A DNA stretch of 64,000 bases from Halomonas sp. Y3. GTDB taxonomy: Bacteria > Pseudomonadota > Gammaproteobacteria > Pseudomonadales > Halomonadaceae. Where the stretch lies: NCBI RefSeq assembly GCF_024137965.1, contig NZ_CP099975.1, positions 682,001 through 746,000 on the forward strand. The letters are read 5' to 3'. The first letter of the stretch is position 1. The number at the start of each line of letters is the position of its first letter. Positions 42,747 through 56,448 of this stretch are shown in pieces. The notes below the pieces were generated by a model. The model saw only the letters and a list, made by a program, of their open reading frames with translations. It had not been told where the DNA came from and did not search any database. The position numbers and the translations under genes are program-made.

Positions 42747-43439
42747 TCAAACGGAGAGGTAGGCGGTGATTTGCTCGGCGTTACAACCTTCCCGGGGGAC
42801 ATCGTGCACCATGTGGCCGGATTCGATGACCATCAGACGGTCGGCGACGTCCAGAGTGAAGCTCAGGATCTGTTCGGAGACCACGATGGTGATGTCGCGC
42901 ATTTTCTGGATGTCGTTCAGGGTCTGGGCAATCTCCTTGATGATGGAGGGCTGAATGCCCTCGGTGGGCTCGTCGAGCAGCAGCACCTTGGGCTCGGAGA
43001 CCAGCGCCCTGGCGATGGCGAGCTGCTGCTGCTGCCCGCCCGAGAGGTTGCCGCCCTTGCGGTGGCGCATCTCGTGCAGTACCGGAAACATCGAGAAGAT
43101 CTCGTCCGGGATACGACTGCGCTGGGTGGCGGTCTCGAGCCCGGCCTGGATATTCTCCAGCACCGTGAGATGAGAAAATATCATTCGGCCCTGGGGCACA
43201 TAGGCCAGGCCCGCCGCGACCCGGGCGTGGGAAGGCAGCCCGGTGAGCTCCTGGCCGTCGAGCACAATGCTGCCGGCCGTGTGCTTGAGAATGCCGATCA
43301 GGGTCTTGAACGTCGTGGTCTTGCCCATGCCGTTGCGACCCATGATCGCCAGCGTCTCGTTCTGGCGGGCGACGAAGTCGACGCCATGGATCACCTCGCT
43401 CTGTCCATAGCTGACCTTGAGACCTGAGACTTCCAGCAT
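42747..43439 (-). CDS. urtE: Urea/amide ABC transporter ATP-binding protein UrtE
   Basis: A 230-aa LivF-type ATPase: Walker A MGRNGMGKTTTFKTL, signature NLSGGQQQQLAIARAL, Walker B VLLLDEPTEGIQPS. The four-Gln signature and TEGIQPSIIKEI are typical of UrtE. It is the last gene of the five-gene minus-strand importer operon urtABCDE, 42 bases after urtD. The neighbouring amidase and formamidase genes suggest that amides may be carried as well as, or instead of, urea. Confidence 0.92.
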   Translation of the reverse strand: MLEVSGLKVSYGQSEVIHGVDFVARQNETLAIMGRNGMGKTTTFKTLIGILKHTAGSIVLDGQELTGLPSHARVAAGLAYVPQGRMIFSHLTVLENIQAGLETATQRSRIPDEIFSMFPVLHEMRHRKGGNLSGGQQQQLAIARALVSEPKVLLLDEPTEGIQPSIIKEIAQTLNDIQKMRDITIVVSEQILSFTLDVADRLMVIESGHMVHDVPREGCNAEQITAYLSV

Positions 43440-43481: not shown

Positions 43482-44228
43482 TCAGTGGCCCAGATAGACG
43501 TCGATCACACGCCGGTCCGACTGCACGGTCTCCATATCGCCCTCGGCGAGAATGGTGCCCTGGTGCAATACCGTGACCTTGCGCCCGATCTGCTTGACGA
43601 AATTCATGTCGTGCTCGATAACGATGATGGAGTGCTTTCCGGCCAGGCGGTTGAGCAGTTCAGCCGTAAGCTCGCGCTCCCGGGCACTCATCCCGGCGAT
43701 GGGCTCATCGAGCATCAAGAGCGCCGGGTCCTGCATCAGCAGCATGCCGATCTCCAGCCACTGCTTCTGGCCATGGCTGAGCAGTCCTGCCTCCGTCTCC
43801 AGCGCCTCGGCGAGCAGCACCACGCTGGCAATCTCGTGGGTCTTCTCCCGGAGCGCCTCATCGCGCTTGAAGGCCACGGCCCCCCAGACCCCTCGGCCCC
43901 GGGGATAGGAGACCTCCAGGTTCTCGCGCACCGTCAGGCTGTCGTAGATCGACGGCGTCTGGAACTTGCGGCCGACACCCTCCCAGACGATGCGATGCTC
44001 CGGCAGCTTGGTCAGCTCCTTGCCGCGAAACTTGATCGAGCCCTCGGTGGGCTTGGTCTTGCCGCAGATCAGATCCAGCAGCGTGGTCTTGCCCGCCCCA
44101 TTGGGGCCGATCACTACCCTCAGCTCCTTCTCATCCATGTAGAAGTTGAGGCCGTTGATGGCCTTGAAGCCGTCGAAAGAGACGGTCAGGTCTTCCACCG
44201 CCAGAAGAAAATCCGTATTGCTGCTCAT
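43482..44228 (-). CDS. urtD: Urea/amide ABC transporter ATP-binding protein UrtD
   Basis: A 248-aa LivG-type ATPase: Walker A GPNGAGKTTLLDLICG, signature LLSHGQKQWLEIGMLL (the SHGQKQ form typical of UrtD), Walker B LLMLDEPIAGMS, and H-loop IVIEHDMNFV. Its ATG overlaps the restored stop of urtC by ATGA, which supports the frameshift reading of urtC. Confidence 0.93.
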   Translation of the reverse strand: MSSNTDFLLAVEDLTVSFDGFKAINGLNFYMDEKELRVVIGPNGAGKTTLLDLICGKTKPTEGSIKFRGKELTKLPEHRIVWEGVGRKFQTPSIYDSLTVRENLEVSYPRGRGVWGAVAFKRDEALREKTHEIASVVLLAEALETEAGLLSHGQKQWLEIGMLLMQDPALLMLDEPIAGMSARERELTAELLNRLAGKHSIIVIEHDMNFVKQIGRKVTVLHQGTILAEGDMETVQSDRRVIDVYLGH

Positions 44229-44277: not shown

Positions 44278-45354
44278 TCAGCAGGCGGCGCGCCCTAGGC
44301 GCATATTTCTCGTAGAGCCCGGCCAGGCCATGGGCAGGAAGAGCACCACCACGATAAACACCGTGCCCATCAGGAAGAGCCAGAGCTGGGGGTAGGCCTC
44401 GGCGAAGGCGATGCGCAGGAAGCCGATGGCCAGGGCGCCATACACGGCCCCGATCAGCGACAGCCGCCCCCCGACCGCCGCGAAGATGACGAACTCGATG
44501 GAGGGGATGATGCCGATCAGCGACGGCGACATGAAACCTTCCTGCAAGGTGAACATGGCGCCGCCGATCGCCGAGAAGGTGGCGGCGATGCAGAAGGCAA
44601 AGGCCTTGAAGTTGGCGACGTCGTAGCCCGAGAAGCGCACTCGATCCTCGCGGTCGCGCATGGCGATAAGGATGCGCCCGAACTTGGTGTGCAGCAGCCA
44701 CTTGCCCAGCACAATCACCGCCAGCAGCAGCACCGCGGTGATGAAGTAGAGCGTCACCAAGGCCTCGTCGGTGTTGATGCTCCAGCCCTTGAGGGTGCGC
44801 AGGTCGGTGATGCCGTTGGCGCCGCCGGTAAAGCCCTGCTGCGCCACCAGCAGGATGGTGAGAATGACCACCAGGGCCTGGGTGATGATGGCAAAGTAGA
44901 CACCGCTGACGCGGCGCTTGAACATCGCGATGCCCATCAGGTAGGCGAAGGCCGCCGGCAGCACCAGGATGGCCAGCAGGGTGAAGGTGAGGCTGTGGAA
45001 GGGGACCCAGAACCAGGGCAGCTCGGTCAGACGGTTCCAGTCCATGAAATCCGGGATGCCGGGAGTGGTCTGGATGGCGGTGGCCTCCGGGGTCGAGGCC
45101 TCCAGCTTCAGAAACATGGCCATGCAGTAGCCGCCGATGCCGAAGAAGATCCCCTGCCCCAGGCTCAGGATGCCGCCATAGCCCCAACACAGCACCAGAC
45201 CCACGGCGACGAAGCTGAAACTCAGGAAGCGGCCGGTGAGGTTCAGCTGATCCACCCCCATGGCCAGCGGGAAGACGATCAGGATCAGGGCGGCCAGCAC
45301 AAGCAGGCTGACCAGCCCATTCCTGCCATCGAGAAAATCCAGTTTCGCGTTCAT
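44278..45354 (-). CDS. urtC: Urea/amide ABC transporter permease UrtC, C-terminus frameshifted
   Basis: As read, 358 aa: a LivM-type inner-membrane permease with about ten membrane segments and a permease loop (MRDREDRVRFSGYDVANFK). The last 15 residues (AWPGSTRNMRLGRAAC) are unlike the family. One base missing in the C-run near 44335 would give a tail with GLAGLYEKYAPRARRLL and a stop at 44225, exactly overlapping the urtD start. The restored protein has 376 aa. The loss affects only the cytoplasmic tail, so the product may still work, but coupling to urtD translation would be altered. Confidence 0.88.
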   Translation of the reverse strand: MNAKLDFLDGRNGLVSLLVLAALILIVFPLAMGVDQLNLTGRFLSFSFVAVGLVLCWGYGGILSLGQGIFFGIGGYCMAMFLKLEASTPEATAIQTTPGIPDFMDWNRLTELPWFWVPFHSLTFTLLAILVLPAAFAYLMGIAMFKRRVSGVYFAIITQALVVILTILLVAQQGFTGGANGITDLRTLKGWSINTDEALVTLYFITAVLLLAVIVLGKWLLHTKFGRILIAMRDREDRVRFSGYDVANFKAFAFCIAATFSAIGGAMFTLQEGFMSPSLIGIIPSIEFVIFAAVGGRLSLIGAVYGALAIGFLRIAFAEAYPQLWLFLMGTVFIVVVLFLPMAWPGSTRNMRLGRAAC

Positions 45355-45380: not shown

Positions 45381-46304
45381 CTAACGGCGCACCTTGCTGG
45401 CAAAGAGCCCTTGCGGGCGGATCATGAGGATGGCGACGACGATCAGCAAGGTAATCACCTTGCCCATGGAGCCACCGATGAAGAAGTCGAGCACCGATTG
45501 CCCCTGGGCGATGGTGAAGGCCGAGGCGACCGTGCCGAGCAGGCTTCCCGCGCCGCCGAACACCACCACCAGGAAGGTATCGACGATATAGAGAGACCCG
45601 CTGGTGGGGCCGGTGGAGGAGATGGTGGTAAAGGCCGCACCGGCAATCCCGGCGATGCCGCAGCCGAGTGCAAACGTCAGGCGGTCGACGCCTCGGGTGT
45701 TGATACCTACGGCGCCGGCCATTTCACGGTTGGCGGTGGCGCAGCGCACGCGCAGCCCCCAGCGGGAGCGAAACAGGAGCCAGGCGATGCCTAGGGTGAC
45801 CACTAGGGTGAGCCCCATGATCGCCAGGCCGTTGATCGGAATGTCGATCATCATCGTCGGTCGATAGGAGCCCTGCAGCCAGTCCGGCAGGCGGACGCTG
45901 ACCTCACGGGCCCCGAAGCCGGAGCGAAAGGCCTGCTGCATGATCAGCGCCAGCCCCCAGGTGGCCAGCAGTGTATCCAGGGGACGGTGGTAGAGATGCC
46001 GAATCAGCACGAACTCGACCACCCAGCCGACGATAAAGGCGACCAGGAAGGCGAAGGGAATGGCCAGGATCAGGTAGTAGTCCATCATCCACGGCATCTG
46101 CGCCGAGACAAAGGTAGAGAAGAGATAGGTGGCGTAGGCGCCGATCACCATGAACTCGCCATGGGCCATATTGATCACGCGCATCTGCCCGTAAATGATC
46201 GCCAGGCCCAGCGCCATCAACAGCAGGACACTGAAGAAGCTCAGGCCGGCGAAGCCCTGCATGGCGAAGATCGCCATCAACTCCTGAGTCGTGAAATCAC
46301 TCAT
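45381..46304 (-). CDS. urtB: Urea/amide ABC transporter permease UrtB
   Basis: A 307-aa LivH-type permease: GLAIIYGQMRVINMAHGEFMVIGAY at the N-terminus (typical of UrtB) and the loop RCATANREMAGAVGINT. About eight membrane segments. It pairs with UrtC in the inner membrane. The spacing to urtC is 26 bases. Confidence 0.93.
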   Translation of the reverse strand: MSDFTTQELMAIFAMQGFAGLSFFSVLLLMALGLAIIYGQMRVINMAHGEFMVIGAYATYLFSTFVSAQMPWMMDYYLILAIPFAFLVAFIVGWVVEFVLIRHLYHRPLDTLLATWGLALIMQQAFRSGFGAREVSVRLPDWLQGSYRPTMMIDIPINGLAIMGLTLVVTLGIAWLLFRSRWGLRVRCATANREMAGAVGINTRGVDRLTFALGCGIAGIAGAAFTTISSTGPTSGSLYIVDTFLVVVFGGAGSLLGTVASAFTIAQGQSVLDFFIGGSMGKVITLLIVVAILMIRPQGLFASKVRR

Positions 46305-46416: not shown

Positions 46417-47709
46417 TTACTGATAGCCTTCGGGGAAGGGGTTGGGTTCGATCATTTCGGGGGACTCCCACACCACCTCGGCCTGGCCGTCGCCGTTCCA
46501 CTTGCCGATGCGGGTATAGCTCCACAGGTGATGGTTGGGATGCACTTTCACATAGCCTTCCGGTGCGGTGGTGATCTCGATACCCGGCAGATGCTCGCGA
46601 ATCTTGTCGATATCGAAGCTGCCGGCACGCTCGACCGCTTCCTTCCAGATCCAGGGGCCGAGATAGGCGGCCTGAGTCACATCGCCGATCACGCTATCCT
46701 CGCCCCAGCGCTCCTTGAAGGCCTGGACAAACGCCTGATTATTCTCGTTGTCGAGACTCTGGAAGTACTTCATGGCCGAGTAGAAACCTTCGACGTTCTC
46801 ACCGCCGATCCCCAGCACTTCATCCTCGGTCACGGAGATGGCAAGCACATTCTGGCTCTCGCCATTGATGCCGGCCGCGTTGAGCTGGCGGTGCCAGGCA
46901 ACGTTGGAGCCCCCTACCACGGCATGGAAGATCATGTCTGGCCGGCGCAGGCGGATGCGGTTGATGGCCGAGCCGAAGGAGGTGTGGCCCAGGGCGTAAT
47001 AATCCTCGCCCACCACTTCTCCCCCCAGCACGTCCTCGATGTGAATGCGGGCGATCTTCATCGAGGTGCGCGGCCAGATGTAGTCGGAGCCGATCAGATA
47101 GAAGCTACGCGCGCCCTTCTCGTTCCAGGCCCAATCGATACCGGCAAGAATCTGCTGGGTGGCCTCCTGGCCGGTATAGACCACGTTGGGTGACTGTTCG
47201 AGCCCCTCATAGAAGGTCGGATAGAAGAGCATGCCGTTCTCACGCTCGAACACCGGTAGAATCGCCTTGCGTGACGCCGAGGTCCAGGCGCCGAAGACGG
47301 CAGCCACGTTATCCTGGCGGAGCAGCTTGCGGGAGCGGTCGGCGAAGGTCGGCCAGTCGCTGGCGCCATCTTCCAGGATAATTTCGATCTGGCGGCCCAG
47401 CACGCCGCCCATCTCATTGATCTGCTCGATGGCCAGGGTTTCCGCTTCGACGGAGCCGGTTTCACTGATGGCCATGGTGCCGGAAAGCGAGTGCAGAATG
47501 CCCACCTTCACGGTGTCATCGGTAACGGCCAGCCCGGTCGTATTGACCTCGGCAGTGGGCCATTCGGAGTTGGCCTGGGCGGTGGTGCTGAAACTGAGCG
47601 ACAACGCCACTGGGGCGGCAATCAGACTGCTGACGAGGGTGCGACGCAGCCGTTTGAATAGTCGATCCTGCTCTGAAGAACGATAACGCTCTGAGGAACG
47701 AAGAGACAT
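46417..47709 (-). CDS. urtA: Urea/short-chain amide ABC transporter substrate-binding protein UrtA
   Basis: A 430-aa periplasmic binding protein: basic N-terminus and signal sequence (RRTLVSSLIAAPVALSLSF, cleavage after AQA), then VKVGILHSLSGTMAISE, VFGAWTSASRKAILP, YPTFYEGLEQSPNVVYTG, all UrtA/AmiC/FmdD-type. The start at 47709 is preferred because CAGGAG lies six bases upstream; an ATG seven codons earlier lacks it. First gene of the operon, divergent from the sensor kinase, with a palindromic operator in the shared region. Confidence 0.92.
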   Translation of the reverse strand: MSLRSSERYRSSEQDRLFKRLRRTLVSSLIAAPVALSLSFSTTAQANSEWPTAEVNTTGLAVTDDTVKVGILHSLSGTMAISETGSVEAETLAIEQINEMGGVLGRQIEIILEDGASDWPTFADRSRKLLRQDNVAAVFGAWTSASRKAILPVFERENGMLFYPTFYEGLEQSPNVVYTGQEATQQILAGIDWAWNEKGARSFYLIGSDYIWPRTSMKIARIHIEDVLGGEVVGEDYYALGHTSFGSAINRIRLRRPDMIFHAVVGGSNVAWHRQLNAAGINGESQNVLAISVTEDEVLGIGGENVEGFYSAMKYFQSLDNENNQAFVQAFKERWGEDSVIGDVTQAAYLGPWIWKEAVERAGSFDIDKIREHLPGIEITTAPEGYVKVHPNHHLWSYTRIGKWNGDGQAEVVWESPEMIEPNPFPEGYQ

Positions 47710-48026
47710 CCCGGACTCCTGGGGCTGCATGGTGACAGCCAGTTGCGGAAAGTTGCGGATAAGCAGTGGCCGAATACTGCTTCGACGCTAGGAAGCTTCG
47801 TCCCTTGCTGCGCTGCGGAACAATACGTCGATTAACGTATGGTGACGGCTAGGAGACGCAGGCAGAGTCTGCGAGTAGAAACCGAAGAACCGCCCACACG
47901 GTCGGCGCCGGCGATCAGGGCATGCTTATTGCATCTTGAGGTTGCTGGCCATTGTCTGCCGATGGCCTTTCGTCCAGGCCATCCCATATCAGCGATGACG
48001 CGGCTGTTCACCCCGGGAGCCCAAGC
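47710..48026. other. 317-bp divergent control region between urtA and the sensor kinase
   Basis: No gene is seen. It contains the palindrome at 47824-47839 and a tandem 10-base repeat AGTTGCGGA(A/T) at 47741-47760, between that palindrome and the urtA start. GGGAG at 48014-48018 serves the GTG start of the kinase gene. No sigma-54 site of the form TGGCAC-N5-TTGC was found. Confidence 0.6.
47824..47839. promoter_or_regulatory. Amide-regulon operator, copy 1
   Basis: TACGTCGATTAACGTA: arms TACGT/ACGTA with a 6-base centre. Copy 1 of three matching TACGTYRAYTRACGTA. It lies 115 bases upstream of urtA (minus strand) and 187 bases upstream of the kinase start (plus strand). Confidence 0.75.
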
Positions 48027-51000
48027 GTGACACGACCCTATTGCTCTGCCTCTTCTTCACCGCCGGATGACGACCCTGCGGCCCAGGCCCGCCAGTGGGA
48101 GGCCATTCCCTCGGCCCCCCTCCTTCCGGAAGAGGGGGCGCCAGGAGATGCGACGTTGGGCGATGGCCTGTCGAGGGCCCAGCGCGTGCCGCGGGTGCGG
48201 CGCACCTACAACCAGTGGGTAGCCAATCAGACTCTGGAGGACTATGCGCTGCGCTTTACCGCCAAGCGGGCACGGCGCTTCTCCTGTTTCCAGGTGGCCA
48301 ATACCGCCCTGGGCGCCGTCTCCTTCCTGGCGCTCGAAGCGGTCGGTGGCGTGATTACCGTGCTCTACGGCTTTCACAACGCGGTCCTGGCGATCCTGGC
48401 GGTGTCGGCGCTGATTTTCCTGACCGGTCTGCCCATCGCCTATCATGCCGCCCGCTCTGGCCTGGATATCGACCTGCTCACCCGCGGCGCCGGCTTCGGC
48501 TATATCGGCTCCACGATCACGTCGCTGATCTATGCGTCCTTCACCTTCATCTTCTTTGCCATCGAAGCCGCCATCCTGGCCCTGCTCCTGGAGATGTGGT
48601 TCGGCCTGCCACTGTGGGCGGGTTATAGCCTGAGCGCCGTGGCCGTGATCCCTTTAGTGACTCACGGCATCACTCTGATCAGCCGCTTCCAGTCGCTGAC
48701 CCAGCCGGTCTGGCTGGCGCTGCACCTGCTGCCCTTCCTGGCTCTGGGGGTGCATGGCCAGCTCGACCTGACGGGCTGGATGGGCGTTACAGGCAGCCAT
48801 TCCGAGGCGGACGGCGGCTTCAATTTGCTGCTTTTTGGTGCAGCCTCGGCGGTGATCTTCGCCTTGGTGGCACAGATCGGCGAACAGGTGGACTACTTGC
48901 GCTTCCTGCCGCGGGATTCCGGCAAGGGGCGGCTGGGCTGGTGGCTGGCGCTGATCGCGGCGGGGCCCGGGTGGATCATCCCAGGGGCACTGAAGATGCT
49001 GCTGGGATCGTTCCTGGCCTATTTCGTGCTCAGCCTGGGGGGCACCGAGCAGCAGGCGACCGACCCCAACAGCATGTACCTGGCCGCCTTTCAGTTCGTG
49101 ACCCTCAATGCCGAGCTGGCCATGCTGCTGACCGGTCTATTCGTGATCCTGTCGCAGATGAAGATCAACGTGACCAACGCCTATGCCGGCTCCATTGCCT
49201 GGTCGAACTTCTTCTCGCGGCTCACCCGCAGCCATCCCGGGCGGGTAGTCTGGCTGGTGTTCAACGTCGCCATTGCACTGTTGCTGATGCAGATCGGCAT
49301 CTACAAGGCGCTGGAGCAGATCCTCAGCCTCTATTGCCTGGTGGCCGTGGCCTGGGTCGGGACCCTGGTCGCTGATCTGCTGATCAACAAGCCCCTGGGC
49401 CTGAGCCCCGCGCATCTCGAGTTCAAGCGCGCCCATCTGCACGACGTCAACCCGGTGGGAGTGGTCTCCATGCTACTGTCGCTGCTGCTGGGCGTGACAG
49501 CGTTCATCGGCCTGTTCGGCGAGACGGCTCGGGCCCTGGCGCCTTTCCTTGCGCTGGGGCTGCCGTTTCTCACCGCCCCGCTGATCGCTCTGATCACCGG
49601 CGGCCGCTACTACATCGCCCGCACACCCAAAGCAGACTGGGAGGCCAGAGATGTGATCCGCTGCTCGGTGTGTGAGCACGGCCTCGAGTCGGAGGACATG
49701 GCCGAATGCCCGGCCTACGGCGGGCCCATCTGCTCGCTGTGCTGTTCGCTGGATGCCCGCTGCAACGACCTCTGCAAGCCCGAGGCGCGCCTGTCGCTGC
49801 AGACCCTGGCGGTGCTCAATGTCCTGCTGCCGCCGCAGATGGTGGACCGCCTGCATTCACGCTTCGGCAAGTACCTCTTCCTGCTGCTGGTGATGGTGCT
49901 GGTGGTGGGGTCGTCGCTGGCGGTGATCTATGTGCAGGCGACCCTGGATGACCGGCTATATGCCGAGGTGGTGGCGGCGACACTCTGGCAGACCTTCTTC
50001 ATCCTGTTCCTGATCGCTGGCGTCGTCGCCTGGCTGATCGTCCTGGCCCACGAGAGCCGGGTCGCTGCGGAGCAGGAGTCGCGCTATCAGAATGATCTGC
50101 TCATGGCGGAAATCGACGCCCATGAGCGCACCGATCTGGAGCTGCAGAAAGCCAAGGAGGTAGCCGAGGCGGCGAACATGGCCAAGAGCCGTTATATGGT
50201 GGGCATGAGCCATGAGCTGCGTACCCCACTGAACACGGTCCTGGGCTATGCCCAGCTGCTGGAGCGAGATACCGCGCTATCGCCTCTCCACCGCAACTCC
50301 GTCCAGGTACTGCGACATAGTGCCGAGCACCTCTCCGGACTGATCGACGGCGTTCTGGATATCTCGCGTATCGAGGCCGGGCGACTGGAGCTGCACCGCG
50401 AAGAGGTCAATATTCGCGAACTACTCGAGCAGCTGGTGCAGATCTTCCGGCGCCAGGCAGAGGAGAAGGGACTATCGCTGACCTTCCACTGCGCCGAGCG
50501 CCTCCCGGGCATGGTCTATACCGACGAACGCCGGCTGCGTCAGGTATTGATCAACCTGCTCTCCAATGCGGTGAAATTCACCGACGAGGGCGGCATTCGC
50601 TTCTACGTGGACTATGGCAGCCAGGTGGCGACCTTCCAGGTCTGCGATACCGGCTTGGGCATTCCGGCTTCACAGCTCGACAGCATCTTCAAGCCCTTCG
50701 AGCGAGTGGCACCCAGCCAGGGTGCCGCCCGCTCGGGCATGGGCATCGGCCTGACCATCACCAAGCTGCTGGCCGAGATCATGGGGGGCAGCATCGAGGC
50801 GAAGAGCGAGCTGGGGGTGGGCAGTGAGTTCCGGGTGCGGCTGATGCTCTCGGCGGTGCCTCAGGTGCTGCGACCTAATGCGCCGCCGCGCCGCATCGTC
50901 GGCTACCGGGGGACGCGGTGCAGCGTGCTGATCGCCGATGACGAGGCGCCACATCGCCACCTGCTGGCGGAATTTCTGGATGATCTGGGCTTCAGGGTGC

Positions 51001-51575
51001 ACACCGCTCCCGACGGTGAGGCGTGCCTGGCGCAGGCACTGCAGTGCCCGCCGGACCTCTTTCTGCTCGACATTACCATGCCAGGCATGAGCGGCTGGGA
51101 GCTAGCCGAGCGCCTGCGCGCCGCTGGTCTACGGGGAGGGATCATGATGGTGTCGGCCGACGCCTCGGGGTTGCAGCGCTTCAGCCGTGGCGAGGGGCCC
51201 TGGAGCGACTACCTGACCAAGCCTGTGGACCTGAACCAGTTATTAGAGAAGGTGGGCAGGCTGCTGGGGCTGAATTGGGTGCATGAAGTGGCAGATGAGG
51301 ACGTAGTGCCCCCCGCTCAAGCGGCCTCGGCTAACGACGCCTCGCGCCCCCTGGTGCTGCCCGCACCCGCTCTGCTGAACCCCCTGGAGCGGCTGGCGCG
51401 CATCGGGCACGTGGCCGGGGTGCGGGCGCAGCTGACACGCATCGCCGAGCAGGCGCCCGAGGCCACCGACTTCGTCGACCATGCTCGGCTGCTCACCCGG
51501 CAGTTCCGCTTTGGCGACCTTGTGGATCTGATCCAACAGCACCAGGCCAGCCGTCAGGAGGAAGATAATGCGTGA
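48027..51575 (+). CDS. NCS1-permease-fused hybrid histidine kinase
   Basis: A 1182-aa receptor. Residues about 60-530 form an NCS1 (purine/cytosine permease-like) transporter domain, opening with RRTYNQWVANQTLEDYALRF and followed by about twelve membrane segments. Residues about 544-587 are Cys-rich (CSVCEHG...CPAYGGPICSLCCS...CNDLC), perhaps a metal site. Two more membrane segments follow (about 610-690). Then come a coiled coil, HisKA with H about 728 (MSHELRTPLNTVLGY), HATPase (NLLSNAVKFTDEGG, DTGLGIP, GMGIGLTITK), and a receiver with D about 1014 (LFLLDITMPG). The GTG at 48027 has GGGAG upstream; a TTG 25 codons earlier is possible. It likely senses amide or urea. It overlaps the regulator gene by 8 bases. 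Confidence 0.88.
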   Translation: MTRPYCSASSSPPDDDPAAQARQWEAIPSAPLLPEEGAPGDATLGDGLSRAQRVPRVRRTYNQWVANQTLEDYALRFTAKRARRFSCFQVANTALGAVSFLALEAVGGVITVLYGFHNAVLAILAVSALIFLTGLPIAYHAARSGLDIDLLTRGAGFGYIGSTITSLIYASFTFIFFAIEAAILALLLEMWFGLPLWAGYSLSAVAVIPLVTHGITLISRFQSLTQPVWLALHLLPFLALGVHGQLDLTGWMGVTGSHSEADGGFNLLLFGAASAVIFALVAQIGEQVDYLRFLPRDSGKGRLGWWLALIAAGPGWIIPGALKMLLGSFLAYFVLSLGGTEQQATDPNSMYLAAFQFVTLNAELAMLLTGLFVILSQMKINVTNAYAGSIAWSNFFSRLTRSHPGRVVWLVFNVAIALLLMQIGIYKALEQILSLYCLVAVAWVGTLVADLLINKPLGLSPAHLEFKRAHLHDVNPVGVVSMLLSLLLGVTAFIGLFGETARALAPFLALGLPFLTAPLIALITGGRYYIARTPKADWEARDVIRCSVCEHGLESEDMAECPAYGGPICSLCCSLDARCNDLCKPEARLSLQTLAVLNVLLPPQMVDRLHSRFGKYLFLLLVMVLVVGSSLAVIYVQATLDDRLYAEVVAATLWQTFFILFLIAGVVAWLIVLAHESRVAAEQESRYQNDLLMAEIDAHERTDLELQKAKEVAEAANMAKSRYMVGMSHELRTPLNTVLGYAQLLERDTALSPLHRNSVQVLRHSAEHLSGLIDGVLDISRIEAGRLELHREEVNIRELLEQLVQIFRRQAEEKGLSLTFHCAERLPGMVYTDERRLRQVLINLLSNAVKFTDEGGIRFYVDYGSQVATFQVCDTGLGIPASQLDSIFKPFERVAPSQGAARSGMGIGLTITKLLAEIMGGSIEAKSELGVGSEFRVRLMLSAVPQVLRPNAPPRRIVGYRGTRCSVLIADDEAPHRHLLAEFLDDLGFRVHTAPDGEACLAQALQCPPDLFLLDITMPGMSGWELAERLRAAGLRGGIMMVSADASGLQRFSRGEGPWSDYLTKPVDLNQLLEKVGRLLGLNWVHEVADEDVVPPAQAASANDASRPLVLPAPALLNPLERLARIGHVAGVRAQLTRIAEQAPEATDFVDHARLLTRQFRFGDLVDLIQQHQASRQEEDNA

Positions 51576-52488
51576 TATCAACCAGCCGCAGCGACGGGAT
51601 ACCGTGCTGGTGGTCGACGATTCACCGGAGACCCTGAGCCTGATCACCGATGCCCTGGCCAGCGCTGGCGTCACGGTGCTGGTAGCCCTGGATGGCCGCA
51701 GTGCCCTGACGATGCTCGACGAGATCACCCCGGACATCGTGCTCATGGATGCCATGATGCCGGGGCTGGATGGCTTCGAGACCTGTCGGCTGCTGAAACA
51801 GCGCCACGACCTGCCGGTGATCTTCATGACGGGCCTATGCGAGACCGAGCACATCGTGCGGGGCATGGAAGTGGGCGGTGTGGATTACATCACCAAGCCG
51901 GTGACGCCCGATGAGCTGCTGGCGAGAATGCGGGTACACCTGACCAACGCGCGCCGGACGAGCAGCGCCCGCGCCGCGCTGGATGCCAGTGGTCGGCATA
52001 TGCTGGCGGTCAATGCGGCAGGCGCCATGCTATGGAGTACCCCTCAGGCCAACCGCCTGCTGGAGGAGTGCCTGCAGGCTGAGCGCCTGACCGTCGAGGG
52101 CACAACGCTGACGCTTGCCGAGTGGCTGGTGCGCTGCCTCGGCGCCGAGAGCGGCCCGCCAGTCTCGGTGCCCGACGCCGAGGCGCGCATCGAGGCCCAG
52201 CTGATCGGCCAGCTGGCCGAGGATGAGTTTCTGCTGAGCCTGGCGCGCAAGCGTGATGTGCCGCCCGAGCAGCTGCTGGGTGAGCGCCTGGGACTGACCC
52301 AGCGTCAGGCCGAGGTGCTCTACTGGGTCGCCAACGGCAAGGCCAATCGCGATATCGCCCTGATCCTGAGCATGAGCCCCAGAACCGTAAACAAGCATCT
52401 TGAGCAGATCTTCCTGAAGCTGGGCGTCGAGAACCGCACCTCGGCGGCGGTCATCGGCCTGAATGCCCTGGAACCCTACGTTGATTGA
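51568..52488 (+). CDS. LuxR/FixJ-type response regulator
   Basis: A 306-aa regulator: receiver domain with phospho-acceptor D61 ([15 protein letters not shown]) and Lys in DYITKPV; a middle linker (about 130-235) with a PAS-like feel ([16 protein letters not shown]); and a C-terminal LuxR-type helix-turn-helix ([28 protein letters not shown] onward). AGGAGG lies eight bases before the ATG, and the start overlaps the kinase gene, so the pair is co-translated. Its last codons (PYVD, stop) coincide with operator copy 2. It is probably the protein that binds the palindrome. Confidence 0.9.
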
Positions 52489-52492
52489 CGTA
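52477..52492. promoter_or_regulatory. Amide-regulon operator, copy 2
   Basis: TACGTTGATTGACGTA, overlapping the last three codons and TGA stop (52486-52488) of the response regulator gene and 154 bases upstream of the amiE ATG. A 14-bp palindrome CGGCAGCGCTGCCG (52501-52514) follows within the 158-base amiE leader. Confidence 0.75.
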
Positions 52493-52646
52493 TTTCCTCC
52501 CGGCAGCGCTGCCGCCAGACTCATCCTTGACATCCATCGCCGGCCCCCTGGCGCAGCGCTCGAATCGTCCATGTTATTTCTCCATGACGGCACGACTCTC
52601 GACCCTGGCGGCGATCCCCCTCTCGTCAGTCAAGGAGACTCGTACA

Positions 52647-53693
52647 ATGCGACATGGTGATATTTCCAGCAGTGCCGATACCGTGGGTGTGGCGGTGGTG
52701 AACTACAAGATGCCGCGGCTGCATAGCCGCGCCGAGGTGCTGGAGAACGCCCAAAAGATTGCCGATATGGTGGTGGGCATGAAAAAAGGATTGCCAGGCA
52801 TGGACCTGGTAATCTTTCCGGAGTACAGCACCCACGGCATCATGTACGACCATGACGAGATGATGGAGACCGCCTCCGTCATTCCCGGTGACGAGACGGC
52901 GATCTTCTCGCGCGCCTGCCGCGAGGCCAATACCTGGGGTGTGTTCTCCCTGACGGGCGAACGCCATGAGGAGCATCCGAAAAAACATCCCTACAATACC
53001 CTGGTGCTGATCGACAACGAGGGCGAGATCGTTCAGAAATATCGCAAGATCATTCCCTGGTGCCCCATCGAGGGCTGGTACCCTGGCGGCCAGACCTTCG
53101 TCAGCGAAGGCCCCAAGGGCATGAAGCTCAGCCTGATCATCTGCGACGACGGCAACTACCCCGAGATCTGGCGGGACTGTGTCATGAAGGGCGCCGAGCT
53201 GGTGGTGCGCTGTCAGGGCTATATGTACCCCGCCAAGGATCAGCAGGTGATGATGGCCAAGAGCATGGCCTGGGCCAACAACTGCTACGTGGCGGTAGCC
53301 AACGCCAGCGGCTTCGACGGCGTCTATAGCTACTTCGGACACTCGGCCATTATCGGCTTTGACGGCCGCACGCTCGGCGAGTGTGGTGAAGAGGATATGG
53401 GCGTGCAGTACGCGCAGCTCTCCCTGAGCCAGATTCGTGATGCGCGCGCCAACGACCAGTCCCAGAACCATCTCTTCAAGCTGCTGCACCGAGGCTACAC
53501 CGGCGTGCATGGCTCCGGAGACGGCGACAAGGGCGTGGCCGACTGTCCCTTCGAGTTCTATCGCACCTGGGTGCTAGATGCCGAAAAGGCCCGCGAGCAG
53601 GTGGAAAGCTTCACGCGCAGCAGCGTGGGGGTCGCCCAGTGCCCGGTCGGCAGCCTGCCCGTGGAGGGCAAGGAAAAGGGCGCCGCGGGGTAG
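52647..53693 (+). CDS. amiE: Aliphatic amidase
   Basis: A 348-aa nitrilase-superfamily amidase close to Pseudomonas AmiE from the first residues ([25 protein letters not shown]). The catalytic set is at the canonical positions: E59 (IFPEYSTHG), K134 (KYRKIIPW), E142 (IEGWYPG) and C166 ([10 protein letters not shown]). It hydrolyses acetamide, propionamide and similar short amides to the acid and ammonia. AAGGAG precedes the ATG. The gene lies behind operator copy 2 and six bases before amiB. Confidence 0.97.
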
Positions 53694-53699
53694 GCGGCC

Positions 53700-54743
53700 A
53701 TGCCGTTTATCAATGACCGACTGGAGGGCCAGAACGCCGGCTCGGCGCCGGCGTCGCGGCTCACTCCGGGAGTGAGCCGCTTCACCTTCGACCCCGCTCG
53801 GGTGATGGCGCAGCTGCGCCAGGGAATCCTGGGGCAGCCACAGGCGCTGGCGGCCCTTGAGGATCTGCTCCATGTGGTTAAGGCAGAGCTCTCGCCGGAG
53901 CAGCGGCCTCTCGGGGTGGTGCTGCTGATGGGCCCCACCGGTGTCGGCAAGACCGAGACCGTTCGCCTGCTGGCCCGAGCGATTCAGGGTCGCGACGATG
54001 GGCTGTGCCGCATCGACATGAACACCTTGGGCCAGGAGCACTATGCGTCGGCGCTGGTGGGGGCGCCACCGGGCTATGTGGGCAGCAAGGAGGGCCACAG
54101 CCTCTTCGATGCGGAGCGCATTCGCGGCAGCTTCAGTACACCCGGCGTGGTGCTGTTCGACGAGCTTGAGAAGGCCAGTCCGGAGGTGATACGCACGCTG
54201 CTCAACGTGCTGGACAGCGGATGGCTGACGCTACCCGCGGGCAACCGTCAGGTCGATTTTTGCAACGCCCTGATCTTCATGACCAGCAACCTGGGCGCCG
54301 CCGAGCTGGCGCGCTACCAGGGACGCTTCCAGCGCGGCTGGCGGCGGCTGTTCGCGCCTGACCCTGCCAGGCAGAAACAGCTGCTGGAAGAGGCCCTGCA
54401 CCGTCGCTTCGAACCCGAATTCATCAATCGCATCGACCGGATCCTGCACTACCAGCCGGTGGCCGGCGCACCGCTCGAGGCGCTGCTGGACCTCGAGCTC
54501 GCCAAGCTGAATGAACGCCTCTCCCGACAGGGGCGTACCTTGAGCCTCGGCCCGACGGCACGACGATGGCTTCAGGAGCAGCACGACTCCCGCTTCGGTG
54601 CTCGTGATCTCGCGCGTCGTCTACGCACTCAGCTGCTGCCGTTACTGGCGCGAGAGATGATGCATCACCCGGAGATCATGCACTGGCATGCCGATCTGCA
54701 TAAAGGCGAATGGGTCATGCGGGGCGCACCCTACGTCAACTGA
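53700..54743 (+). CDS. amiB: AmiB-type AAA ATPase of the amidase operon
   Basis: A 347-aa ClpX/ClpB-related ATPase: Walker A LMGPTGVGKTETVRLL, Walker B VVLFDELEKASPEV, sensor 1 FMTSNLGAAEL, sensor 2 in FGARDLARRLRTQL. AmiB is known in the Pseudomonas amidase operon (amiEBCRS), where its role is thought to be chaperone-like or linked to transport. Here amiC, amiR and amiS are absent and the kinase/regulator pair and Urt importer take their place. Its last codons (PYVN, stop) coincide with operator copy 3. Confidence 0.9.
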   Translation: MPFINDRLEGQNAGSAPASRLTPGVSRFTFDPARVMAQLRQGILGQPQALAALEDLLHVVKAELSPEQRPLGVVLLMGPTGVGKTETVRLLARAIQGRDDGLCRIDMNTLGQEHYASALVGAPPGYVGSKEGHSLFDAERIRGSFSTPGVVLFDELEKASPEVIRTLLNVLDSGWLTLPAGNRQVDFCNALIFMTSNLGAAELARYQGRFQRGWRRLFAPDPARQKQLLEEALHRRFEPEFINRIDRILHYQPVAGAPLEALLDLELAKLNERLSRQGRTLSLGPTARRWLQEQHDSRFGARDLARRLRTQLLPLLAREMMHHPEIMHWHADLHKGEWVMRGAPYVN

Positions 54744-54747
54744 CGTA
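54732..54747. promoter_or_regulatory. Amide-regulon operator, copy 3
   Basis: TACGTCAACTGACGTA, overlapping the stop codon of amiB (54741-54743) and 95 bases upstream of the fmdA ATG. A -10-like GATAGT (54771-54776) follows at a distance that would place the operator centre near -43, a usual position for LuxR-type activators. The -10 call is tentative. Confidence 0.75.
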
Positions 54748-54842
54748 TGGCACGCCCAGTGACCTTGTCTGATAGTGAAATGGCGAGGCGTTGACTCCGC
54801 TGTCGTGATTTCCGATCAAGCAAAGCGCAAGGAGTAGTTGCC

Positions 54843-56075
54843 ATGGCCGATACCCTTATCAAGATTGATCTCGACAAGTCGCCGTACGAAAACGACATGA
54901 TTCACAACCGCTGGCACCCGGACATTCCGATGGTTGCCACCGTCAAACCTGGGGATGACTTTGTCGTCGAGTGCTATGACTGGACAGGCGGCCAGATTCA
55001 CAACAATGACAGCGCCGACGATGTCCGCGATGTCGACCTGACTCAGGTCCATTTTCTTTCCGGCCCGGTCGGGGTCGAGGGGGCCGAGCCGGGCGACCTG
55101 CTCGAGGTGGATATCCTGGATATCGGCGCCTTCGAGTCCAGTCAGTGGGGCTTCAATGGCTTCTTTTCCAAGCAGAACGGCGGCGGGTTTTTGACCGAGC
55201 ACTTCCCGGAGGCGCAGAAATCGATCTGGGGTTTCAATGGCATGTTTACCAAGTCCCGTCACATTCCCAACGTGGAATTCGCTGGCCTGATCCACCCCGG
55301 TCTGATCGGCTGCTTGCCATCCAGGGAGATGCTCGCCGAGTGGAACAAGCGAGAACAGGCCCTGGTGGACACGGACCCCGATCGTGTCCCTCCGCTGGCG
55401 GCCCTGCCCTTCGCCGATACCGCCCATATGGGGAGAATGTCCGCCGATCAGGCCAAGCTCGCCGGGGCAGAAGGCGCACGCACCGTGCCTCCGCGCGAGC
55501 ACGGCGGCAACTGTGACATCAAGGACCTGTCGCGGGGCGCCAAGATCTACTTCCCCGTCTACGTGAAGGGCGGCGGTCTCTCGGTGGGTGACCTGCACTT
55601 CAGCCAGGGCGATGGCGAGATCACCTTCTGCGGCGCTATCGAGATGGCCGGCTGGATCCATCTGCGGGTCAACGTCATCAAGGGGGGCATGGCCAAGTAC
55701 GGGATCAAGAACCCGATCTTCAAGCCAAGCCCGATCAAGCCTCGCTACGACGACTATGTGATCTTCGAAGGCATCTCGGTGGATGAGCAGGGCGAGCAGC
55801 ACTATCTGGATGTGCACGTGGCCTATCGCCAGGCGTGTCTCAACGCCATCGAATACCTGACCAAGTTCGGCTATACCCCCGCTCAGGCCTACGCCATTCT
55901 CGGCTGCGCACCGGTCGAGGGCCATATCAGCGGCGTGGTGGATATTCCCAACGCCTGCGCCACCCTCTGGCTGCCCACGGGGATCTTCGATTTCGACATC
56001 AACCCCAGCGCCGCCGGCCCCGAGGTCAAGGTCAAGGGGGGGGTGGACGTGCCGCTGTCGCCGGACAAGGAGTGA
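54843..56075 (+). CDS. fmdA: Formamidase FmdA
   Basis: A 410-aa acetamidase/formamidase family enzyme close to Methylophilus FmdA: WTGGQIHNNDSADDVRDVDL, HFLSGPVGVEGAEPGDLL, REHGGNCDIKDLSRGAKIYFP, GDLHFSQGDGEITFCGAIE. It hydrolyses formamide to formate and ammonia. AAGGAG lies eight bases before the ATG. It is preceded by operator copy 3 and followed four bases later by fmdB. Confidence 0.96.
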   Translation: MADTLIKIDLDKSPYENDMIHNRWHPDIPMVATVKPGDDFVVECYDWTGGQIHNNDSADDVRDVDLTQVHFLSGPVGVEGAEPGDLLEVDILDIGAFESSQWGFNGFFSKQNGGGFLTEHFPEAQKSIWGFNGMFTKSRHIPNVEFAGLIHPGLIGCLPSREMLAEWNKREQALVDTDPDRVPPLAALPFADTAHMGRMSADQAKLAGAEGARTVPPREHGGNCDIKDLSRGAKIYFPVYVKGGGLSVGDLHFSQGDGEITFCGAIEMAGWIHLRVNVIKGGMAKYGIKNPIFKPSPIKPRYDDYVIFEGISVDEQGEQHYLDVHVAYRQACLNAIEYLTKFGYTPAQAYAILGCAPVEGHISGVVDIPNACATLWLPTGIFDFDINPSAAGPEVKVKGGVDVPLSPDKE

Positions 56076-56079
56076 GCCT

Positions 56080-56448
56080 ATGCCCCTGTACGACTACAAG
56101 TGCCAGGAGCACGGCCTCTTCCAAGAGCTGGCCACCTTCGCGGAGAGCGCCCTGCCCAGGCCGTGTCCCCAGTGCGGCACTCTGGCGGCCCGGGTGATTC
56201 TGCTGCCGCCGGCGCTGCGCGCCCTGGACGCGGCGACCCGGGAGGCCATGCAGCGCAACGAGCGCAGCCGGCATGAGCCGCAGTTCTCGACGCCGGAACA
56301 GCGCACCGAAGCGCAGGCGCGTCATGAGCACCGCCATGGCAAGGGCTGCGGCTGCGCCCACCGCGACCTCGACAAGCCCCAGGTGTTCTACACCGCCGAC
56401 GGCAAGAAGATGTTCCCTTCCGCGAGGCCCTGGATGATCAGCCACTAG
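56080..56448 (+). CDS. fmdB: FmdB-type zinc-ribbon protein
   Basis: A 122-aa protein with an N-terminal zinc ribbon (YDYKCQEHG...CPQCG). The middle is charged, with a His/Cys stretch (HEHRHGKGCGC). FmdB proteins stand beside formamidase genes in methylotrophs and are thought to regulate or assist expression; the mechanism is not clear. It is the last gene of the amide-degradation unit; a strong hairpin follows at 56477-56514. Confidence 0.9.
   Translation: MPLYDYKCQEHGLFQELATFAESALPRPCPQCGTLAARVILLPPALRALDAATREAMQRNERSRHEPQFSTPEQRTEAQARHEHRHGKGCGCAHRDLDKPQVFYTADGKKMFPSARPWMISH

Follow-up and report, generated by a model that had tools for sequence, protein, structure and literature searches.

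The closest described relative of the system reported here is the acetate two-component system CrbS/CrbR (MxtR/ErdR) with its ACTU motif, an inverted repeat that lies at -52 to -36 of acs in Pseudomonas fluorescens (PMC5715377); its sensor, CrbS, has an SLC5 domain joined through a STAC domain (PMC9100948). The pyruvate system RpuS/RpuR of Sinorhizobium combines a transporter-fused kinase with a regulator that activates a transporter operon via a promoter element (PMC9100948). For amidases, regulation is described for AmiR, an RNA-binding antiterminator, and the same source describes a Pseudomonas veronii Yu15 cluster with the gene set amiE-fmdAB-urtABCDE and without amiC/amiR (PMC13209695). 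Likewise, a urt-like cluster beside fmdA and amiE of Bradyrhizobium japonicum has been interpreted as encoding an amide transporter (PMC3098086). Here we analyze a 64,000-nucleotide stretch of the Halomonas sp. Y3 genome (contig NZ_CP099975.1, positions 682,001 to 746,000; hereafter the window) in which this gene set surrounds the genes of a membrane-bound hybrid sensor kinase and a LuxR-type response regulator, and in which a 16-bp palindrome stands before urtA, amiE, and fmdA. The palindrome recurs before equivalent amide and urea genes in many proteobacteria with the same sensor and is, for this reason, very probably the switch of that sensor; its reading as the mark of an amide/urea regulon is strongly supported.

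The main texts of the two amidase-cluster studies (PMC13209695 and PMC3098086) contain no mention of "two-component" or "response regulator". Among the papers listed by searches of open-licence PubMed Central literature, to which the search was confined, none describes this kinase, regulator, or site in its title or abstract, and six common 16-mers of the site do not occur in that literature.

A palindrome precedes three transcription units of the cluster

The pattern TACGT-N6-ACGTA has 3 places in the window and none in any of 100 dinucleotide shuffles:

47824-47839, no strand assigned: operator 1, TACGTCGATTAACGTA, between the divergent urtA and sensor kinase genes, with an equivalent position in relatives
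52477-52492, no strand assigned: operator 2, TACGTTGATTGACGTA, 5' of amiE, overlapping the stop codon of the regulator gene
54732-54747, no strand assigned: operator 3, TACGTCAACTGACGTA, 5' of fmdA, overlapping the stop codon of the amiB-like gene, with the same place in relatives

An earlier note on this sequence had reported three copies with identical arms and no further one in the window, and all of them lie exactly where it placed them; the closest runners-up (18556 and 32693) differ at 2 arm positions. Its consensus TACGTYRAYTRACGTA proved slightly over-fitted to these copies, as relatives yield TACGTYRNNYRACGTA with TACGTCA-NN-TGACGTA as the best form. Operator 1 is separated by 93 bp from the ATG of urtA and by 112 bp from the TTG of the kinase gene, whose start is uncertain, while the gaps from operator 2 to the amiE ATG and from operator 3 to the fmdA ATG are 154 bp and 95 bp, respectively. 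Operators 2 and 3 cover the last codons and the stop of the preceding genes (regulator ...EPYVD*, AmiB-like ...APYVN*), and this overlap is why 2 unrelated genes share a PYV[DN]-stop ending (52477-52488 and 54732-54743).

In the whole genome (4,112,032 bases), the pattern occurs at 4 places and its reversed counterpart at 2. The motif is thus not scattered at random, which the earlier note had named as a possible refutation: Outside the cluster, the genome holds just one match (3399801-3399816) within a coding sequence that we identified by eye as guaB (IMP dehydrogenase). Allowing up to 3 mismatches to the strict consensus gives 25 places in the genome compared to 83 for the reversed pattern, so that only tight matches are specific and only these were used. 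The best extra genomic place (3270560, one mismatch) was set aside as a chance match; its flanking genes look mobile-element-like by eye.

The site is conserved before urt genes, fmdA, and the kinase gene

At E values up to 1e-30, the regulator is present in 8 of 151 genomes of the family including its own and in no other sampled member of its own genus, which makes the cluster patchy in its distribution. The kinase sensor half has at least 525 relatives in one genome collection, and the best 80 of these loci together with 7 family loci form a set of 87 loci from alpha-, beta-, and gammaproteobacteria (class assigned from record names). The kinase gene is followed by the regulator gene in 83 of the 87 as scored by script and also in L076, where the kinase is read in two pieces; the remaining loci (L072, L103, and L112) stop at or near a contig end.

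We performed a census of all exact inverted repeats with 5-bp arms and spacers of 0-12 in the kinase-upstream regions of these loci, excluding the window itself. TACGT with a spacer of 6 ranks first with 21 of 67 de-duplicated regions, whereas no repeat exceeds 6 in any of 50 first-order Markov resamples, and a best match with at most one arm mismatch is found in 44 of the 67 regions versus 6 of 1340 resampled ones. If all 87 regions are kept, ATACG with a spacer of 8, i.e., the same palindrome one base further out, leads with 30 and TACGT/6 has 23.

If at most one arm mismatch is allowed, the 87 loci contain 78 places. The 39 exact sites are all found immediately 5' of a urt gene, fmdA, or the gene of the kinase, and so are 35 of the 39 with one mismatch, the others being inside urtA (2) or elsewhere (2). 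Counted by locus, an exact site is present in 36 of 87 and a site within one mismatch in 54. Alignment of 74 sites (4 non-target places excluded) gives the refined consensus ATACGTCA-NN-TGACGTAT with the half-site TACGTCA, in which positions 6, 7, 10, and 11, untouched by the arm criterion, are symmetrically conserved.

Conservation before orthologous genes had been set as a test for urtA, amiE, and fmdA alike. It was found for urtA and fmdA in other genera and classes, while amiE as a separate unit with its own site was not seen in the relatives. There, amiE usually lies inside a longer gene run and directly 3' of urtE in gammaproteobacterial L045-L048, L071, L078, L081, L089, L090, and L123. 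In the window, amiE follows the regulator gene and has its own site, so that each transcription unit of this differently ordered cluster has one operator.

The site tracks the sensor kinase rather than the target genes

In 20 genomes chosen for having sites in their clusters, TACGTYRNNYRACGTA has 26 exact places, of which 23 are in the clusters; the reversed motif has 4. Of the other 3, one (G167:C23) belongs to a further copy of the system, and two (G154:C132 and G167:C11) are inside unrelated coding sequences. In the seven other regulator-bearing genomes of the family, 7 of 8 exact places of this motif, one in each genome, precede fmdA, urtA, or a urtA-like gene. Two of these genomic contexts needed a wider view, as the exact site of G033 and G121 is located in a stretch neighboring the cluster stretch first examined. 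Allowing up to one mismatch to TACGTYRNNYRACGTA in the seven relatives gives 31 places with 10 in clusters (7 of 8 exact and 3 of 23 one-mismatch places) and 63 for the reversed control. At least one arm match is present in 129 of the 151 family genomes scanned; many of those listed are probably guaB as well, judging from letters identical to the guaB place. A place in G016:C7 lies just 5' of an aldo/keto-reductase-like gene and is either unexplained or due to chance.

An unselected sample of 274 genomes of the class contains the kinase in 15 and the strict motif TACGTCANNTGACGTA in 5, all of which are kinase-bearing (5 of 15 versus 0 of 259 kinase-less genomes; Fisher's exact test, 2.4e-7, or 4.4e-6 without the genome of the window). 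The reversed strict motif is found in 4 of the 274 genomes, none of them kinase-bearing. In the same sample, fmdA is present in 15 genomes and a close urtA (at least 59% identity among the matches listed) in 12, giving 16 genomes combined. Within about 1500 bases either side of these genes, an exact-arm site is found in 4 of 6 kinase-bearing and 0 of 10 kinase-less genomes (p = 0.008, or 0.022 without the genome of the window), and the latter do not show even a one-mismatch site there. Since genomes with amide genes and no kinase are site-less, the site tracks the regulator and not the enzymes, and its co-occurrence with the kinase among genomes with fmdA or urtA sets the adjacent pair apart from a general amide regulator.

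Promoter geometry

The sequence between site and target gene was compared over 69 flanks, 63 of which were left once near-duplicates and very short ones were removed. The signal of a -10-like hexamer peaks +46 and +24 downstream of the site, and the pooled maximum was reached by 0 of 300 independent rotations. The +24 peak belongs to the transporter type adjoining urease (15 flanks) and the +46 peak to the first type of urtA (36 flanks), each with 0 of 300 rotations. The two spacings differ by 22 bp or about two helical turns. With textbook values for the -10 matrix and a transcription start assumed 7 bp downstream of the hexamer, the center of the site would fall near -43 or -65, both of which are usual for LuxR-type activators. 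The spacing of +24 or +46 between site and -10 therefore fits an activator. In the window, 2 hexamers are candidates at the +24 position:

54771-54776, + strand: -10-like hexamer GATAGT, +24 after operator 3, putative fmdA promoter
52516-52521, + strand: -10-like hexamer CAGACT, +24 after operator 2, putative and weak amiE promoter

Other conserved elements were seen in these flanks. Gammaproteobacterial promoters have a second element at about +13 to +25 (ATT...CGAATGG). Immediately next to the site in the direction of urtA, alphaproteobacterial urtA promoters (L105:9826-9840, L074:9892-9908, L067:9591-9606, and others) carry a second palindrome of the type TTGYTGC-NN-GCARCAA, which by eye is clearest in the first-type alphaproteobacterial group and hinted at in a few second-type promoters and on the urtA side of the window (TTGTTCCGCAGCGCAGCAA); it is possibly the operator of another regulator.

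A predicted transporter-like sensor with a cysteine-rich segment

The regulator is a NarL/LuxR-type response regulator with a receiver domain (PF00072, 5.4e-28) and a C-terminal GerE helix-turn-helix domain (PF00196, 8.9e-17); the domain scan gave no ANTAR match, and a separate search for an AmiC-like gene was not made. The kinase contains a transporter-like membrane domain, as predicted by modeling, fused to HisKA, HATPase_c, and receiver domains, with 2 segments of note:

48177-49871, + strand: kinase sensor part as modeled, predicted NCS1 fold (Mhp1/CodB) with the cysteine-rich segment near its end
49662-49775, + strand: eight-cysteine segment, kinase residues 571-608 of the annotated frame, invariant in 68 of 68 aligned relatives

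The kinase start codon is uncertain, and similarity to the family relatives begins near residue 62-77. At E values up to 10, the sensor half matches no Pfam family in a library that presumably includes NCS1 models; the kinases of 2 relatives showed no transporter family either, and no related sequence was found among solved structures in the PDB. A first structural model from 8 sequences was poor (predicted local distance difference test score, pLDDT, of 50.4); the model used here was built from 68 aligned sequences and has a mean pLDDT of 84.7. Its top fold matches in the PDB are Mhp1 (2jln, E = 4.2e-10) and CodB (7qoa_A, 4.7e-10, template modeling score of 0.83 on the target), with SSS/SLC5 structures ranking below from 2.2e-6, among them the urea transporter DUR3 at 2.2e-6. 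The sensor is thus predicted to resemble NCS1 transporters in fold only and not by a sequence family match, and this domain may act as the ligand sensor.

Between the transporter-like domain and the kinase core, the eight-cysteine segment follows the pattern CxxC...CPAY...ICSLCCSLDARC.D.CK and, without a Pfam match in the sensor-half scan, resembles a metal- or redox-binding linker. The region from the sensor to HisKA has no Pfam match at all, in a library for which the presence of a STAC model is uncertain. Some genomes (G419, G433, G307, and G167) contain two copies of the kinase sensor, and in G167, a site is likewise found between kinase and urtA of the second copy.

Gene content of the cluster and of related loci

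The genes of the window cluster are as follows:

42747-43439, - strand: urtE, ATPase (TIGR03410)
43482-44228, - strand: urtD, ATPase (TIGR03411)
44278-45354, - strand: urtC, permease (TIGR03408)
45381-46304, - strand: urtB, permease (TIGR03409)
46417-47730, - strand: urtA, substrate-binding protein of a urea/amide ATP-binding cassette (ABC) transporter (TIGR03407)
47952-51575, + strand: hybrid sensor histidine kinase of 1207 amino acids with predicted NCS1-like domain, cysteine-rich segment, HisKA, HATPase_c, and receiver
51568-52488, + strand: response regulator of 306 amino acids with receiver and GerE/LuxR helix-turn-helix, proposed to bind the operators
52647-53693, + strand: amiE, aliphatic amidase (NF009802, 709.8 bits)
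53700-54743, + strand: AAA ATPase, AmiB-like (PF07724)
54843-56075, + strand: fmdA, formamidase (NF045496, 785 bits)
56080-56448, + strand: fmdB-like zinc-ribbon protein

The AAA ATPase is called AmiB-like because we take it to correspond to AmiB of the Pseudomonas amidase operon; no search gave that name. UrtA of the window exceeds the curated cut-off of the urea ABC substrate-binding model, as do 4 of 4 tested relatives, and since proteins from amidase and urease loci alike pass it, this model leaves the UrtA substrate unsettled. No known RNA element was found in the window between 41000 and 57500.

Among the 87 loci, 62 have a first-type UrtA (at least 55% identity) with fmdA in 52 and urease in none, 17 have a second-type UrtA with urease genes in 10 and fmdA in none, and a further 8 show no urtA, all of these absences being soft because many loci end at contig ends. 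In GC-rich loci, a greedy choice of open reading frames gave wrong frames, and these were used only for reaching urease matches. What the proposed target genes have in common is that they serve to take up and hydrolyze small amides, urea among them. The amide/urea regulon proposed in the earlier note is supported in substance and has to be widened in scope, as in some lineages a urease cluster lies next to the kinase, the regulator, and the site. In the Halomonas genome itself, the urease genes (2.569 Mb, with a second urtA-like gene at 2.576 Mb) have no place with up to 3 mismatches to the consensus nearby and were rejected as further targets; the regulon as seen here is therefore the amide cluster. 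In G367 (L158:2528-3718), a site lies 5' of a porin-like gene (outer membrane, by eye) that is followed by a second-type urtA.

Proposed mechanism and alternative explanations

In the model that we propose, the LuxR-type response regulator encoded at 51568-52488 has ATACGTCA-NN-TGACGTAT as its operator. The membrane-bound hybrid kinase next to it would detect a small amide or urea with its NCS1-like sensor half and hand phosphate to the regulator, whose phosphorylated dimer would bind before urtABCDE, amiE-amiB, and fmdAB and possibly before its own kinase-regulator operon. There, it would activate sigma-70-type promoters from a site with its center around -43 or, in many gammaproteobacteria, around -65. 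Taken as a whole, i.e., operator, NCS1-like amide/urea-sensing kinase, and activation of urt, ami, and fmd genes, we consider this model likely.

Several observations weigh against it. Ten of the 15 kinase-bearing genomes of the class sample lack the strict motif, and G433 and G240, which are 2 of the 6 kinase-bearing genomes with fmdA, have no exact-arm site in the stretches examined. The promoter evidence is uneven: The 11 fmdA flanks peak at +46 with a score that was also reached by 1 of 300 rotations, and GATAGT before fmdA of the window scores 3.8 and comes second to TGAAAT at +29 (4.0). CAGACT before amiE ties with CATCCT at +30, and the urtA promoter of the window has no convincing -10 at +24 or +46. 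Finally, among the 20 related loci of the Bradyrhizobium/Afipia block, TACGT-N6-ACGTA is found in no exact and 2 near-matching forms, and 3 loci have neither this palindrome nor its variant. In favor of the model, however, the variant TACG[CT]-N6-[AG]CGTA is present in the same region of 17 of the 20, mostly as ATACGCAAGAT[CT]GCGTAT (L052-L065, L069, L070, and L102); it keeps the outer arms and occurs in 2 of 1000 resampled regions, though these 17 loci are not independent because the block is closely related. In L062 and L064, TGCGNTGCA-like elements flank the variant palindrome on both sides.

The adjacent regulator might bind the palindrome mainly as a repressor or for autoregulation of the kinase-regulator operon, with the other targets being incidental. 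The position of the site between divergent urtA and kinase genes in most loci leaves the direction of control ambiguous, and the kinase side of the window has CAGAGT at +24, though this is not the best hexamer there. However, fmdA can have a site of its own (11 exact ones in the 87 loci), as can a unit with a second-type urtA on a different contig from the kinase, and the sites fall upstream of the -10 at a place typical of activators, which makes this explanation unlikely. That a different amide/urea transcription factor binds the site and the two-component pair is a bystander appears very unlikely: Binding by the regulator is a prediction, and the second conserved palindrome downstream of the site in alphaproteobacterial urtA promoters indicates that another factor may act, but the site follows the kinase and not the enzymes in both comparisons of the class sample (0 of 10 kinase-less versus 4 of 6, and 0 of 259 versus 5 of 15). 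Chance or a by-product of coding might be suspected from the overlap of copies 2 and 3 with PYV[DN]-stop codons and from the guaB coding sequence as the sole other genomic copy. The absence of the pattern from all shuffles and the recurrence of the site before the same genes across classes refute this idea, to which we assign a negligible probability.

The proposed activation of urt, ami, and fmd genes by the LuxR-type regulator offers a testable set of regulator, operator, and genes for amide and urea use, with a sensor that has at least 525 related stretches. If true, it would supply an amide- or urea-responsive promoter module and make an NCS1-like addition to the few sensor kinases built on transporters, a group of interest for how a transporter fold passes a signal. 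More tentatively, and with somewhat more doubt than confidence, we suggest that an undescribed class of sensor kinases reads extracellular amides or urea through an NCS1-like domain and an invariant eight-cysteine (metal- or redox-binding) segment. In alpha-, beta-, and gammaproteobacteria alike, such kinases would control a compact regulon, often confined to a single cluster, by way of one conserved operator of 16-18 bp that stays with the transporter genes when amidases give way to urease.

Comparison with known systems

The amidase regulators AmiC/AmiR resemble the window system in that amiE is controlled, but AmiR is an RNA antiterminator (PMC13209695), whereas the window encodes a regulator of the GerE/LuxR DNA-binding type together with a kinase. 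RpuS/RpuR shares a transporter-fused kinase and a regulator with a promoter element at a transporter operon and differs in its SLC5/STAC sensor and in the element, an imperfect direct repeat between -80 and -43 (PMC9100948). CrbS/CrbR comes closest: It has a hybrid kinase with a transporter-like membrane sensor and a LuxR-type regulator, its imperfect inverted repeat is about as long, and the ACTU element of acs (-52 to -36; PMC5715377) lies close to the -43 estimated for the center of the window-type site. The two systems differ in their targets, acetate genes for CrbR and urt, ami, and fmd genes here, and, compared by eye, in their motifs, as ACTU sequences start with TACTACC, TACGACT, or similar (PMC5715377) and the half-site of the window system is TACGTCA. 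CrbS has SLC5 and STAC domains (PMC9100948), whereas the window kinase has a predicted NCS1-like fold followed by the eight-cysteine segment. The window kinase is thus predicted to work like CrbS yet to stand outside the SLC5/STAC histidine kinases CrbS, CbrA, and RpuS.

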